From assembly GCF_030758935.1 (NCBI RefSeq), contig NZ_CP132333.1:434001-498000 (forward strand): a stretch of 64,000 nucleotides of DNA. The letters run 5' to 3'. Shown one piece after another: positions 11,698 through 62,689 of the stretch. This DNA is from Geothrix sp. PMB-07 (GTDB lineage Bacteria > Acidobacteriota > Holophagae > Holophagales > Holophagaceae). The notes beneath the pieces are model-generated. The model was not told where the DNA came from and made no database searches. It saw only the letters and a list, made by a program, of their open reading frames with translations. Each line of letters begins with the position of its first letter. Position 1 is the first letter of the stretch. Made by a program: the position numbers and the translations under genes.

Positions 11698-11817
11698 GCG
11701 CCGCCCTCCTGGTTGTGTCAACTCTAGGGTGGGTGAAGCACATGACAGCCCTGTGAAAGCGCTGCTGATTCGGGGCGGCTTCATACCAAGTTGCGTTCAA
11801 TCCAATCGAAAAGGGGG

Positions 11818-11910
11818 TTCACCACCAAGGCACCAGCGCACCAGGACACCAAGAACTGCATGAAGAGCGGCTCTGGTTTCCCTTGGTGTCTTGGCGCCTT
11901 GGTGGTGTTC
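11818..11910. repeat. Short palindromic repeat element, copy 1
   Basis: Left arm 11820-11859 and right arm 11880-11908 form an imperfect inverted repeat built from an 8-base theme (CACCAAGN, as in CACCAAGG and CCTTGGTG). The same theme and orientation occurs at 56704-56784 and at both ends of the GxxExxY element at 62214-62676. About 20 bases separate the arms. It lies 26 bases after the cobalamin operon stop and may also fold as a transcript-ending hairpin. No gene inside. Confidence 0.8.
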
Positions 11911-11935
11911 CTTATCTTTTGAACTCAAATCCGCA

Positions 11936-12727
11936 TCAGGCCTCTGTTTTGTGTAACTGCCCCTGCAACCACCGCGCCGTGTCGAGAAAACTGGGGCCGT
12001 CGTGGATGATGTTGCGGCCCTTGGTGATGTCGGAGGAGATGATGCGGGGGCCCCAGGACCAGCCGCGTCCGGCCAGCGTGGCGGCGGCATCCACCGGGTA
12101 TTCAGGCTCCTGGAAGAAGAGGATGGCCTGGGGCCGGAGGGCCGCCACCAGTTCCAGATCGGGTACCGGGTAGGCTTCGGAACGCACGGTGGGCACCGCG
12201 ACACCGCCCGCCAGCTCCACCAGGTCGTGGATGAAGGAAAGACCCCCGATGCCGCGCAGGTGGCGACCGCACCACATCTCGATGAACACGGTGGGGCGCA
12301 GCGGTGGGGTGGAAGCGATCAGCTCCGCGAAACCCGCTTCCATGCGGGTGCAGAGGGCCCGAGCCTCGGCCACACAGTGCATGAGGCCGCCCAGGGCGAT
12401 CTGGTTTTCCAGGATGCCGAAGCGGCTGGCAGGCAGGGGCAGGGCGTGGACCGGCAGCCCCGCCTCAGTGAGGCGCTTGGCGAAGGCGGTCTGGATGCCC
12501 GAGGTCACCAGCACCAGGTCCGGCTCCAGGCTGCGCAGGTGGTCGATGTCGGCCTTGAGGTAGTCCCCTGCGATGGGCACGCCGAGGTTGGGTACGTAGC
12601 GGCCGCAGTAGGGCGTGACGCCCACCAGGGCCTCGCCGCAGCCCAGCGCGAAGAGGGTTTCCGTGGCGCTGGAAACGAAGCTGATGACGCGGCGGGGCGC
12701 TTGTAGGGGGATCTGGTTCTGGGTCAA
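11936..12727 (-). CDS. BtuF-like cobalamin-binding protein without signal peptide
   Basis: 263 residues of the periplasmic-binding fold of ABC transporter proteins (PF01497 type). VISFVSSATETLFALGCGE and LVGVTPYCGRYV near the N-terminus, then LEPDLVLVTSGIQTAFAKRL, match cobalamin-binding proteins. There is no signal peptide or lipobox: the protein begins MTQNQIPLQAPRRVISF. It is the last gene of the btu operon and its start overlaps the btuD stop by 4 bases. It may be cytoplasmic or use another export route. A conventional exported binding protein exists earlier in the same operon, so this one probably has a separate corrinoid-related role. That role is inference. Confidence 0.8.
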   Translation of the reverse strand: MTQNQIPLQAPRRVISFVSSATETLFALGCGEALVGVTPYCGRYVPNLGVPIAGDYLKADIDHLRSLEPDLVLVTSGIQTAFAKRLTEAGLPVHALPLPASRFGILENQIALGGLMHCVAEARALCTRMEAGFAELIASTPPLRPTVFIEMWCGRHLRGIGGLSFIHDLVELAGGVAVPTVRSEAYPVPDLELVAALRPQAILFFQEPEYPVDAAATLAGRGWSWGPRIISSDITKGRNIIHDGPSFLDTARWLQGQLHKTEA

Positions 12728-56703: not shown

Positions 56704-56784
56704 GATCACCACCAAGGCACCAAGACACCAAGAACTGCAAAGCCAAGTTCCTTGGTTTTTCTTGGTGTCTTGGTGGTAAATCAG
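56704..56784. repeat. Short palindromic repeat element, copy 2
   Basis: Same CACCAAGN/CTTGGTGN design as copy 1. Left arm GATCACCACCAAGGCACC-type, right arm CTTGGTGTCTTGGTGG. About 25 bases between the arms, containing TTCCTTGG. No gene. Lies between the DHS-like stop and the stop of the convergent methyltransferase gene. Confidence 0.82.
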
Positions 56785-60398: not shown

Positions 60399-62198
60399 AT
60401 GGATGCCCTGCGACACACCTTCGAACAGCGGCTGGCGGCGGCCCTGCCTGGCGTGGACATCGCGCTGGAGCGGCCCAAGTCCGGCGAGCTGGGCGACCTG
60501 GCCTACCCCTGTTTCCGTGCGGCCAAGCAGCTGGGCAAGAATCCGGCGCAGCTTGCGCAGGAACTGGCCGGTGCCATTGCCATCGAGGGCGCCACGCTGG
60601 TGGCCGCCGGTCCGTACCTGAACCTGAAACTGGCGCCGGAGACCCGCGCCCAGGCGGTGCTGGGCGCCATTCTCGCGGCGCCTGAAGGGCGGCCCTTTGG
60701 CTTCCGCCCGGCCAACGGCAAGAAGGTGATCGTCGAGTACAGTTCACCGAACATCGCCAAGCTCTTCACCATCGGCCACCTTCGTTCCACCATGATCGGC
60801 CACGCCCTGGCCCAGACCCACCAGGCCCTGGGTTACGACGTGATCCGCCTCAACCACCTGGGCGATTGGGGCACCCAGTTCGGCACGCTGCTGGCGGCCT
60901 ACACCCGCTGGGCTCAGGACGGAAACGCCGACCTGGAGCAGGATTTCGACTGGGCTGAGCCGGCTCCTGACAAGCGCCGCACACCCCTCTTCCGTCTGTT
61001 CCAGCTGTATGTGCGGTTCCATGCTGAAGAAGAGAACGATCCGGCCATGCGCGACGAGGCCCGCGGCTGGTTCAAGCGGCTGGAAGCCGGTGACGCCGAG
61101 GCCCGCCGCCTCTGGAGCTGGTTCCGCGAGATCTCGCTGAAGGAATTCCAGCGCATCTACGACCGTCTCGGCGTCAGCTTCGACACGCTATCCCAGGGCG
61201 AAGCGTTTTACGAGGACCGCCTCGTCCCCACCATGGATCGGCTCGCGACCGCGGGGCTGCTGGTGGAAGGCGACAAGGGCGCCCGCATCATCAACCTGGA
61301 GGACGTGGGCATCAGCACGCCCTGCCTCGTGCAGAAGGGCGATGGCACCAGCATCTACGCCACCCGCGATCTCGCTGCGGCGCTGTATCGCAAAGAAGCC
61401 TACGCCTTCGACCGCTGCCTCTACGTGGTGGGCACGGATCAGGTGCTGCACTTCCAGCAGATCTTCGCGGTGCTCGACAAGCTGGATCCCTGGTTCAAGG
61501 GCCGCATGCTGCACACGCCCTTCGGCATGGTGAAGCTGCCCGAAGGCAAGATGAGCACCCGCAAGGGCAATGTCATCTTCCTCGAGGATGTGCTCGACGA
61601 GGCCCGTGAGCGCGTGGCCGCCATCATCGACGAGAAGAACCCCGACCTGGCGAACAAGGCCGAGGTGGCCGAGATGCTGGGCATGGGCGCCGTGGTGTTC
61701 TTCGACGCCATGAACGACCGCGTGAAGCCCATCACCTTCACCTGGGACCGCGTGATCGCCCTCGATGGCGACACGGGCCCCTACGTGCAGTACGCCCACG
61801 CCCGCATCATGAGCGTGCTGAGAAAAGCCGGTGGCGATTGGGCGGCCAAGGCCCAGGCTGGAACGCCGGTGGGCCCCGTGGTGCCCTTCGCTTCTGCGCC
61901 ACCGCCTGCGGATCTGGGCGGTCTTCAGGCGCCTGAAGCACAAGCCCTGCTCTTCGAGTTGGCCGGTTTGCCCGGTGCCATCGCCGCCGTGGCGGAAGGC
62001 TGCATGGCCACCCCGCTGGCGCGTCAGCTGGTGTCGGTCGCCAGGTCGTTCAGCGGCTACTACACGAACTGTCCCATTCTTGCCCCAGAGAACACGCCCG
62101 CCGTGCGCGACGCCCGCCTCGCCCTGTGCGTGGCGACGGCCCGCGCGCTGCGCCAGGGCCTGTTCCTCATGGGCATCCAGGCCCCGGAGGAGATGTGA
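60399..62198 (+). CDS. argS: Arginyl-tRNA synthetase
   Basis: 599 residues. VEYSSPNIAKLFTIGHLRST has the ArgRS HIGH motif, then LNHLGDWGTQFG, the LPEGKMSTRKGNVIFLEDVL KMSK-type region and ALDGDTGPYVQYAHARIMSV. The C-terminal anticodon domain ends in the usual LCVATARALRQGLFLMGI. Start at ATG 60399, AAGGA upstream. The stop shares bases with a GTG that may start the GxxExxY gene. Confidence 0.97.
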   Translation: MDALRHTFEQRLAAALPGVDIALERPKSGELGDLAYPCFRAAKQLGKNPAQLAQELAGAIAIEGATLVAAGPYLNLKLAPETRAQAVLGAILAAPEGRPFGFRPANGKKVIVEYSSPNIAKLFTIGHLRSTMIGHALAQTHQALGYDVIRLNHLGDWGTQFGTLLAAYTRWAQDGNADLEQDFDWAEPAPDKRRTPLFRLFQLYVRFHAEEENDPAMRDEARGWFKRLEAGDAEARRLWSWFREISLKEFQRIYDRLGVSFDTLSQGEAFYEDRLVPTMDRLATAGLLVEGDKGARIINLEDVGISTPCLVQKGDGTSIYATRDLAAALYRKEAYAFDRCLYVVGTDQVLHFQQIFAVLDKLDPWFKGRMLHTPFGMVKLPEGKMSTRKGNVIFLEDVLDEARERVAAIIDEKNPDLANKAEVAEMLGMGAVVFFDAMNDRVKPITFTWDRVIALDGDTGPYVQYAHARIMSVLRKAGGDWAAKAQAGTPVGPVVPFASAPPPADLGGLQAPEAQALLFELAGLPGAIAAVAEGCMATPLARQLVSVARSFSGYYTNCPILAPENTPAVRDARLALCVATARALRQGLFLMGIQAPEEM

Positions 62199-62629
62199 AT
62201 CCGGAACCCGGAAAAGATCACCACCAAGACACGAAGACACCAAGAAAGAACCTCTCACCTCAAGAAGAGAGGATTGCCTCCTTGATTGTGGATGCCGCCA
62301 TTAAGGTTCATCCCGCCTTGGGTCCCGGGCTATTAGAAAGCGTGTACGAAACGTGTCTTTCGCATGAGCTTCGTCATCGTGGGCTGCAAGTGGAAGCGCA
62401 AGTCCCAGTGCCGATCCGTTATGAAGGATTGACCCTGGATGGCGGATTCCGCCTCGACCTCCTTGTGGAAGGGCTCGCGGTCATTGAGCTCAAGGCTTTG
62501 GAGAAACTCCTGCCGGTCCATGACGCCCAACTTCTTACCTGCTTGAAGCTGTCCGGCCGAAGGCTCGGCTTTCTCCTCAATTTCAATGTCCCCGTTATGA
62601 AGAACGGAATTTCAAGATTCGTTCTCTAA
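62195..62629 (+). CDS. GxxExxY protein (PD-(D/E)XK nuclease-like)
   Basis: 144 residues if started at GTG 62195, where GGAGGAG lies upstream; a start further inside (ATT or TTG near 62277) is possible. The family signature GPGLLESVYETCLSHEL has the GxxExxY core. RLDLLVEGLAVIELKALEKL gives a D...ExK arrangement as in PD-(D/E)XK nucleases. The left repeat itself is translated as DHHQDTKTPRKN. The gene lies wholly inside an element with inverted repeat ends and its stop is just before the right repeat. The GxxExxY family is known; its function is not established. Confidence 0.8.
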   Translation: MNPEPGKDHHQDTKTPRKNLSPQEERIASLIVDAAIKVHPALGPGLLESVYETCLSHELRHRGLQVEAQVPVPIRYEGLTLDGGFRLDLLVEGLAVIELKALEKLLPVHDAQLLTCLKLSGRRLGFLLNFNVPVMKNGISRFVL

Positions 62630-62676
62630 GCCTTTTTGCAGTTCTTGGTGCCTTGGTGTCTTGGTGGTGATCAGTT
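62214..62676. mobile_element. Inverted-repeat element carrying the GxxExxY gene (copy 3)
   Basis: Left end 62214-62246 (GATCACCACCAAGACAC, then GAAGACACCAAGAA) is the inverted copy of the right end 62635-62676 (TTGGTGTCTTGGTGGTGATC). The full pair reads as the same CACCAAGN words as the short copies at 11818-11910 and 56704-56784. Here about 390 bases with a nuclease-like gene lie between the arms. No transposase, no obvious target-site duplication. Confidence 0.72.
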
Positions 62677-62689
62677 CAAGGAGTAGGCG

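Follow-up and report, generated by a model that had tools for sequence, protein, structure and literature searches.

A small gene of the GxxExxY family lies between argS and pyrG in the window, the whole stretch of 64,000 nucleotides that was analysed here, and is bracketed there by inverted arrays of the word CACCAAGN, while array pairs of the same kind are dispersed through the genome without a gene. We propose that gene, arrays and gene-less pairs probably make up a REPIN/RAYT-like (REPtron-like) unit, in which an unrelated nuclease of the PD-(D/E)XK fold recognises its own word and spreads the gene-less pairs in trans.

The GxxExxY gene and its arrays between argS and pyrG

The GxxExxY gene is situated between the argS stop codon (62196-62198) and the pyrG start (62690); both neighbours are complete and the element is intergenic. 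Its product matches TIGR04256 with 133.4 bits (cut-off 35) and PF13366 with 129.1 bits (cut-off 22), and it matches only these two profiles; no transposase is encoded in the unit, as the initial annotation had said. The two arms are 36 nt each and 89% complementary, which together with the profile scores upholds the original description of a GxxExxY gene bounded by inverted repeats between argS and pyrG. The features of this locus are as follows.

62195..62629, plus strand: GxxExxY (PDDEXK_3) open reading frame of 144 amino acids, matching TIGR04256 and PF13366, with a probable GTG start, the frame from which is kept in orthologues
62276-62623, plus strand: conserved GxxExxY domain, in which the residues invariant across 23 diverse members include E21, D61, E71-x-K73 and Q85 (domain numbering)
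62211..62246, plus strand: left word array, CACCAAG, CACGAAG and CACCAAG separated by single A residues, with outer GATCAC
62642..62677, minus strand: right word array, inverted, three CTTGGTG words separated by C and T, with outer GTGATC

The window contains 32 occurrences of CACCAAG, against 10.1 expected and a maximum of 17 in 100 shuffles. The gene start needs revision, as the frame most likely begins at the GTG at 62195, overlapping the argS stop codon as GTGA. Because translation starting at this GTG would stay in frame across the left repeat and as far as the domain in 11 of 11 intact orthologues, the left array is probably translated as DHHQDTKTPRK, as had been suspected; linker-length differences among the argS-pyrG orthologues are multiples of three. 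Expression of the gene is probably coupled to argS translation.

An AlphaFold2 model of the window protein had a pLDDT of 96.2, and its best structural match was SSO0001 (Cas4; Z 9.9), with Holliday-junction resolvases (Hjc), MGME1, LHK-Exo and restriction enzymes among the others; a sequence search of the PDB with the GxxExxY protein gave no match. The model and its fold matches bear out the PD-(D/E)XK nuclease fold that had been read from a D...ExK pattern, and the protein is confidently modelled with an alpha-beta core in which D and ExK are placed. Y89 is nearly invariant, and the resulting series E ... D ... ExK ... QxxxY is the one that marks the branch to which Cas4, RecB and lambda exonuclease belong. 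Values of dN/dS between 0.06 and 0.13, calculated only where dS was unsaturated, indicate that the protein is maintained by purifying selection. The dS of the GxxExxY gene exceeded that of argS and pyrG, in a comparison where some argS/pyrG alignments had slipped and codon bias differs.

Gene-less copies in the genome

Two gene-less copies of the repeat pair had been reported in the window, and both were recovered.

56705..56777, no strand assigned: gene-less CACCAAG hairpin unit (pair at 56708-56777; genome C1:490710-490775)
11783..11936, minus strand: gene-less unit of about 154 bp belonging to a 9-copy subfamily, with arms at 11820-11907 and conserved outer flanks GGATTTGA.TTCAAAAGATAAGGAACAC ... 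GGATTGAACGCAACTTGGTAT

In the whole genome, pattern searches, from which all genome counts of word arrays are taken, found the three-word pattern (at most three mismatches) 48 times in 4.24 Mb and the reversed control pattern 0 times. These 48 matches group into about 30 units, and besides the gene-bearing copy the genome has some 30 that are gene-less. Most gene-less units are 60-95 bp long, with three words in one arm and three inverted words in the other, on either side of a loop that measures about 15-45 bases; the arms are able to form hairpins and have A-rich and T-rich flanks. Copies of the 9-copy subfamily align over about 150-170 bp, with unrelated DNA beyond, and nine copies in unrelated outer DNA are direct evidence of dispersal as units. 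The subfamily looks recently amplified. Its other eight copies are L044, L045, L046, L050, L052, L053, L065 and L071, and its ends are weakly inverted (ATAC..ATTTGAATTCAA / GGATTGAACGCAACTTGGTAT).

The gene-less copies had been described as short derivatives of the gene-bearing element. Gene-less relatives do exist, but for their origin by deletion we found no clear intermediates: long-loop gene-less copies (of G014, G017, G004 and others), read for gene remnants, revealed no clear internal-deletion stages, and have a common subterminal sequence, often with other repeats nested inside. Two near-identical direct CACCAAGCCACCAAG sites (L069 and L070, at C1:3442684 and 3449868), which have the flanks CCCATGAAAAAAGCCACG...GAACACAACACGACCCTCGTGTTGA in common, are probably a repeated gene start and not elements.

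Presence and absence in relatives

Orthologous junctions were sought in six relatives for 21 of 28 sites of this genome, providing 52 usable site-by-relative comparisons. CACCAAG arms were absent in 37 of these, present in 8 and partial in 7; some of the 37 junctions without arms contain different sequence, in part elements built on another word. A gap of just 0-34 bp was found at the junction in 20 comparisons, covering 11 sites. At C1:1783510, for example, five species have a gap of 2-3 bp and G016 is occupied; at C1:804039 the gap is 0 bp in two species, with G016 again occupied; and the unit of the window at C1:490710 is absent from G016 (30 bp gap) and G006 (10 bp gap). With presence varying between relatives and clean empty sites, the repeats are not fixed at one conserved site. 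Neither of the two outcomes that the initial annotation had named as refuting it was observed, the other being a lack of the D...ExK fold in a structure prediction.

The argS-pyrG locus itself is occupied in 12 of the congeners examined, the empty ones having a gap of 11-34 bp and G006 a decayed remnant. Gene-bearing copies generally are found mostly at the same locus across species (the largest locus group being partly a chaining artefact), and they are mostly inherited vertically in place and hardly mobile within the genus. The mobile element of the initial annotation survives in part: the gene-less copies vary by site, but the gene-bearing unit, present at argS-pyrG in 12 congeners, is mostly inherited in place. 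A gene-repeat unit with gene-less relatives likewise stands, whereas pure selfishness is set against the low dN/dS and the long retention of the gene.

In several cases the empty junction is an ATGA in which the stop codon of one gene overlaps the start codon of the next; in the occupied genomes the unit lies between these two codons, both of which are present, and this hints at a short target duplication. No duplication had been seen originally, and none is clear here either, although there are possible ones of 3-8 bp at ATGA junctions, where flank identity is only 80-90%. Two observations concern other words at the same places: the C1:490710 site in G045 and G037 (L295, L296) holds an element of another word family (GCGGAGG/GCAGAGG), and argS-pyrG in G038, G045 and G040 (L089, L090, L095) holds a gene-less hairpin of this GCGGAGG/GCAGAGG family. 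Such recurrence suggests an insertion-site preference common to word families.

Framing of GxxExxY genes across phyla

Inverted word arrays frame GxxExxY genes generally, and gene and repeats are one unit, as the initial annotation had maintained. The present genome has five GxxExxY genes, each lying between two arrays in which a short word is repeated in tandem and which are inverted relative to each other; every gene has a word of its own (CACGGAGn, CACAGATTn, CACGGATGAA, CACCAAGn and GCGGAGGAn). A GxxExxY match is found in 40 of 47 congeneric genomes, with 1-10 genes apiece. Among the 127 genus genes with both flanks, the left-right inverted match had a median score of 24, compared with 9 for mismatched gene flanks, and 110 of the 127 scored above the maximum (12.5) of a control displaced by 900 bp in the upstream direction, computed on genes of other phyla.

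At least 579 further GxxExxY loci were reached by scanning named genomes, and the best 80, which were taken for flank analysis, belong to Bacteroidota, Cyanobacteria, Planctomycetota, Verrucomicrobiota, Chloroflexota, Pseudomonadota, Gemmatimonadota, Ignavibacteria and others. For the loci of other phyla with full flanks, 42 of 57 scored above every displaced control, versus 0 of 57 for the control (p 8e-16), and words of the form C-A/G-C-N-A/G-A-G/T averaged 8.0 in the flanks and 2.4 in the control.

At six loci (L035, L122, L019, L142, L165, L174) the words are on the strand opposite to the gene (left ATCCCCG..., CATCACCG...), and arm orientation can be inverted as a whole in some gene clades. 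Four other GxxExxY genes (L082, L120, L127, L153) have a different, longer and G+C-rich inverted repeat (GGGGGGCGCCAGGGCCGCG...), and a sequence resembling the latter is nested in gene-less CGCCAAG units of G014 (L273, L274, L277). A phage or plasmid vehicle was considered and dropped: viral contig matches encode no relative, phages gave 0 matches, and the 7 plasmid records were all predicted to be non-mobilizable.

Words change together with the protein

When the genus genes are ordered by the protein tree, their words group accordingly, each gene clade having its own word. Protein identity and word similarity are correlated (Mantel r 0.65; at most 0.06 in 500 permutations). Word similarity jumps at about 70% protein identity: words resemble each other above this value and differ below 60%, and the words of genes within one genome are unlike (mean cosine 0.08). 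At argS-pyrG, the arrays consist of CACCAAG in six genomes. In six others, one of which has a broken gene, both arms are made of CGCCAAG, and the proteins of these form a clade separate from the CACCAAG clade. As read from these genomes, the change from CACCAAG to CGCCAAG is one of both arms together with the protein at a single locus.

The number of words in a genome also follows the type of gene. Counts of CACCAAGnCACCAAG were 36-102 in the six CACCAAG-gene genomes (median 73.5), with a median of 4 elsewhere; median CGCCAAG counts were 32.5 with the cognate gene versus 2 without it, and for ACAGGATT the medians were 20 versus 0. One-sided rank tests for CACCAAG, CGCCAAG and ACAGGATT gave p values of 2.0e-4, 1.7e-4 and 4.8e-5, which are optimistic since the genomes are related. 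All three words nevertheless point the same way, and the genomes with a CACC gene and those with a CGCC gene mostly differ as expected. Both CACCAAG and CGCCAAG are abundant in G017 and G014, and four genomes are rich in CACCAAG without a typed CACCAAG gene (G005, 49; G027, 40; G034, 47; and G024, 88, with 58% completeness); in these the gene may have been lost or missed.

A second family in similar arrays

The TIGR02436 genes encode four-helix-bundle proteins related to S23, which is known from the intervening sequences of 23S rRNA; a search of this genome found none, but they are common in the phylum. In the TIGR02436 loci examined (L363-L392 and L401-L420, from other genomes of the phylum), the best inverted match exceeded the 95th percentile of the null in 26 of 26, and 20 more genes had inverted matches of at least 16. 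In nearly all of the flanks the words are plainly arranged in tandem. They do not follow the CRCnRAK style (GGGACCT, CAGGATT, ATTAGGC, AGTTTC) and differ between genes of one genome; GGGACCT is present in 9-31 copies in three genomes of its carrier genus and absent from five others. This parallel suggests a wider class. We tentatively raise the idea, toward which we lean somewhat less than half-way, of an unrecognised multi-phylum class of elements that would comprise at least two unrelated folds (GxxExxY and S23-like), with private words, inverted arrays, gene-less dispersal and co-diversification of word and protein.

Proposed mechanism and alternatives

In the mechanism that we propose, the GxxExxY protein would recognise the short word of its own flanking arrays (here CACCAAG, with a period of 8), bind three spaced words, and nick or cut at or beside the array, after which host repair or some partner would do the copying or re-joining. 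To our knowledge PD-(D/E)XK enzymes do not join strands, and a partner or host repair must therefore be assumed. Acting in trans on gene-less pairs, which in most copies are about 60-100 bp long, the protein would spread these to other intergenic positions, in many cases where the stop codon of one gene meets the start codon of a closely packed neighbour. The gene-less copies would thereby constitute the mobile population, and the gene-bearing copy, translationally coupled to the upstream gene, would stay put and be inherited vertically with occasional loss, in the manner of a RAYT. We infer that word binding, DNA cleavage and dispersal are all performed by the GxxExxY protein itself.

The arrays might instead be operator or RNA sites through which the protein regulates itself and a regulon, with gene-less copies kept as regulators or terminators and dispersed by other machinery. 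Such a role would be compatible with the intergenic position of the arrays, the co-evolution of gene and word, the purifying selection on the protein and the terminator-like appearance of hairpin-capable arms with A-rich and T-rich flanks. We nevertheless regard a regulatory system as unlikely, since the gene-less copies shift site between species, with many orthologous junctions lacking them, are related to one another as dispersed units, and accompany a protein whose nuclease active site is invariant.

It is more doubtful still that the transcribed array pair is the substrate, with the protein serving as an RNase or the hairpin RNA moving by means of a reverse transcriptase. Inverted arms around a small gene do resemble the 23S rRNA intervening sequences with their S23 protein (PMC4990558), and the S23-like four-helix family has the same word-array architecture. 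On the other hand, the fold points to DNA-processing nucleases, an Rfam search of 18 element loci found no match, and compensatory change between the arms is weak: 7 co-variant cells were counted against 4.35 expected (p 0.06; 19 elements), with most variation in the middle word. Hairpin pairing is not supported as a selected property by this covariation, and word identity is kept more than pairing. Because arm pairing is not strongly selected, this small sample would favour recognition of the word over recognition of a hairpin or RNA. A further reading would make the gene-less copies ordinary MITEs that belong to some unrelated transposon, with the GxxExxY gene as a passenger that landed between two of them. 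It fits the conserved sequence outside the arms and weakly inverted ends of the 9-copy subfamily and the lack of an observed target duplication or strand-transfer enzyme. We consider it highly improbable, because most GxxExxY genes of the sampled phyla are framed by arrays whose words track the protein, and those of passengers would not.

If a nuclease that disperses its own word is indeed at work, a large and so far functionless nuclease family would gain a role, conspicuous intergenic repeats of many phyla (CACAGAG, CACGGAG, CACGGATGAA and similar) would be explained, and there would be a natural set of dozens of small proteins, each specific for a different short DNA sequence, whose recognition rules could be read by comparison. 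In the open-access literature we found no paper describing GxxExxY genes with such repeats, and an earlier mention elsewhere, in subscription papers or NCBI family notes, is possible; the sole match to 18 word strings was an unrelated fish eDNA paper. That literature has GxxExxY in passing as a gene adjoining an RT, and PF13366 in a paper on microalgae.

Comparison with known systems

The GxxExxY gene differs from homing endonuclease genes in that it is not located in an intron, an intein or a coding gene, and its flanking genes are complete. Gene-less units resemble MITEs in being short, in having inverted ends and, on our proposal, in being dispersed in trans; unlike MITEs, their ends are repeated words and not transposase-type terminal repeats, and the unit contains no transposase and is accompanied by no clear target duplication. 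Among 23S rRNA genes, intervening sequences are selfish units with a small ORF for an S23/four-helix-bundle protein (PMC4990558), and S23 relatives (TIGR02436) in this phylum are also found inside inverted word arrays. The GxxExxY unit differs from these in being intergenic and not in rRNA, in its unrelated fold and other style of word, and in having no Rfam match. With the Cas4/lambda-exonuclease/MGME1 branch the protein shares its fold and motif set; unlike Cas4, it is without conserved Fe-S cysteines (no cysteine is invariant across the 23 diverse members), and the gene is found not with CRISPR, cas1 and cas2 or in a recombination operon but inside its own repeat unit, here with argS and pyrG as neighbours.

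The closest parallel is the RAYT/REPIN system, in which a maintained and mostly immobile gene is framed by its own repeat, with gene-less copies dispersed and repeat and protein co-evolving (PMC3116915, PMC8266576). The GxxExxY gene similarly lies inside inverted short repeats of which gene-less palindromic copies are dispersed between genes, and it appears to be inherited vertically and to co-evolve with its repeat, several gene/word pairs occurring per genome. In both systems the gene is usually single-copy, and several gene/repeat pairs may coexist in one genome. The GxxExxY system is nonetheless not a RAYT, because the enzyme is unrelated: a RAYT is an HUH Y1 transposase, whereas the GxxExxY protein has a predicted PD-(D/E)XK fold and matched only PF13366/TIGR04256. 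REPINs are palindromes tagged with GTAG/CGTC, whereas the GxxExxY arms are tandem 7-letter words with spacers of 1-3 bases; in the gene-less units, whose arms read CACCACCAAG...CTTGGTGGTG, the GTAG/CGTC tag is not a constant part. The GxxExxY system also differs from RAYT/REPIN in being spread over many phyla, and it would, if our proposal is correct, be a second way, with a non-homologous enzyme, of achieving what RAYTs achieve with REPINs.
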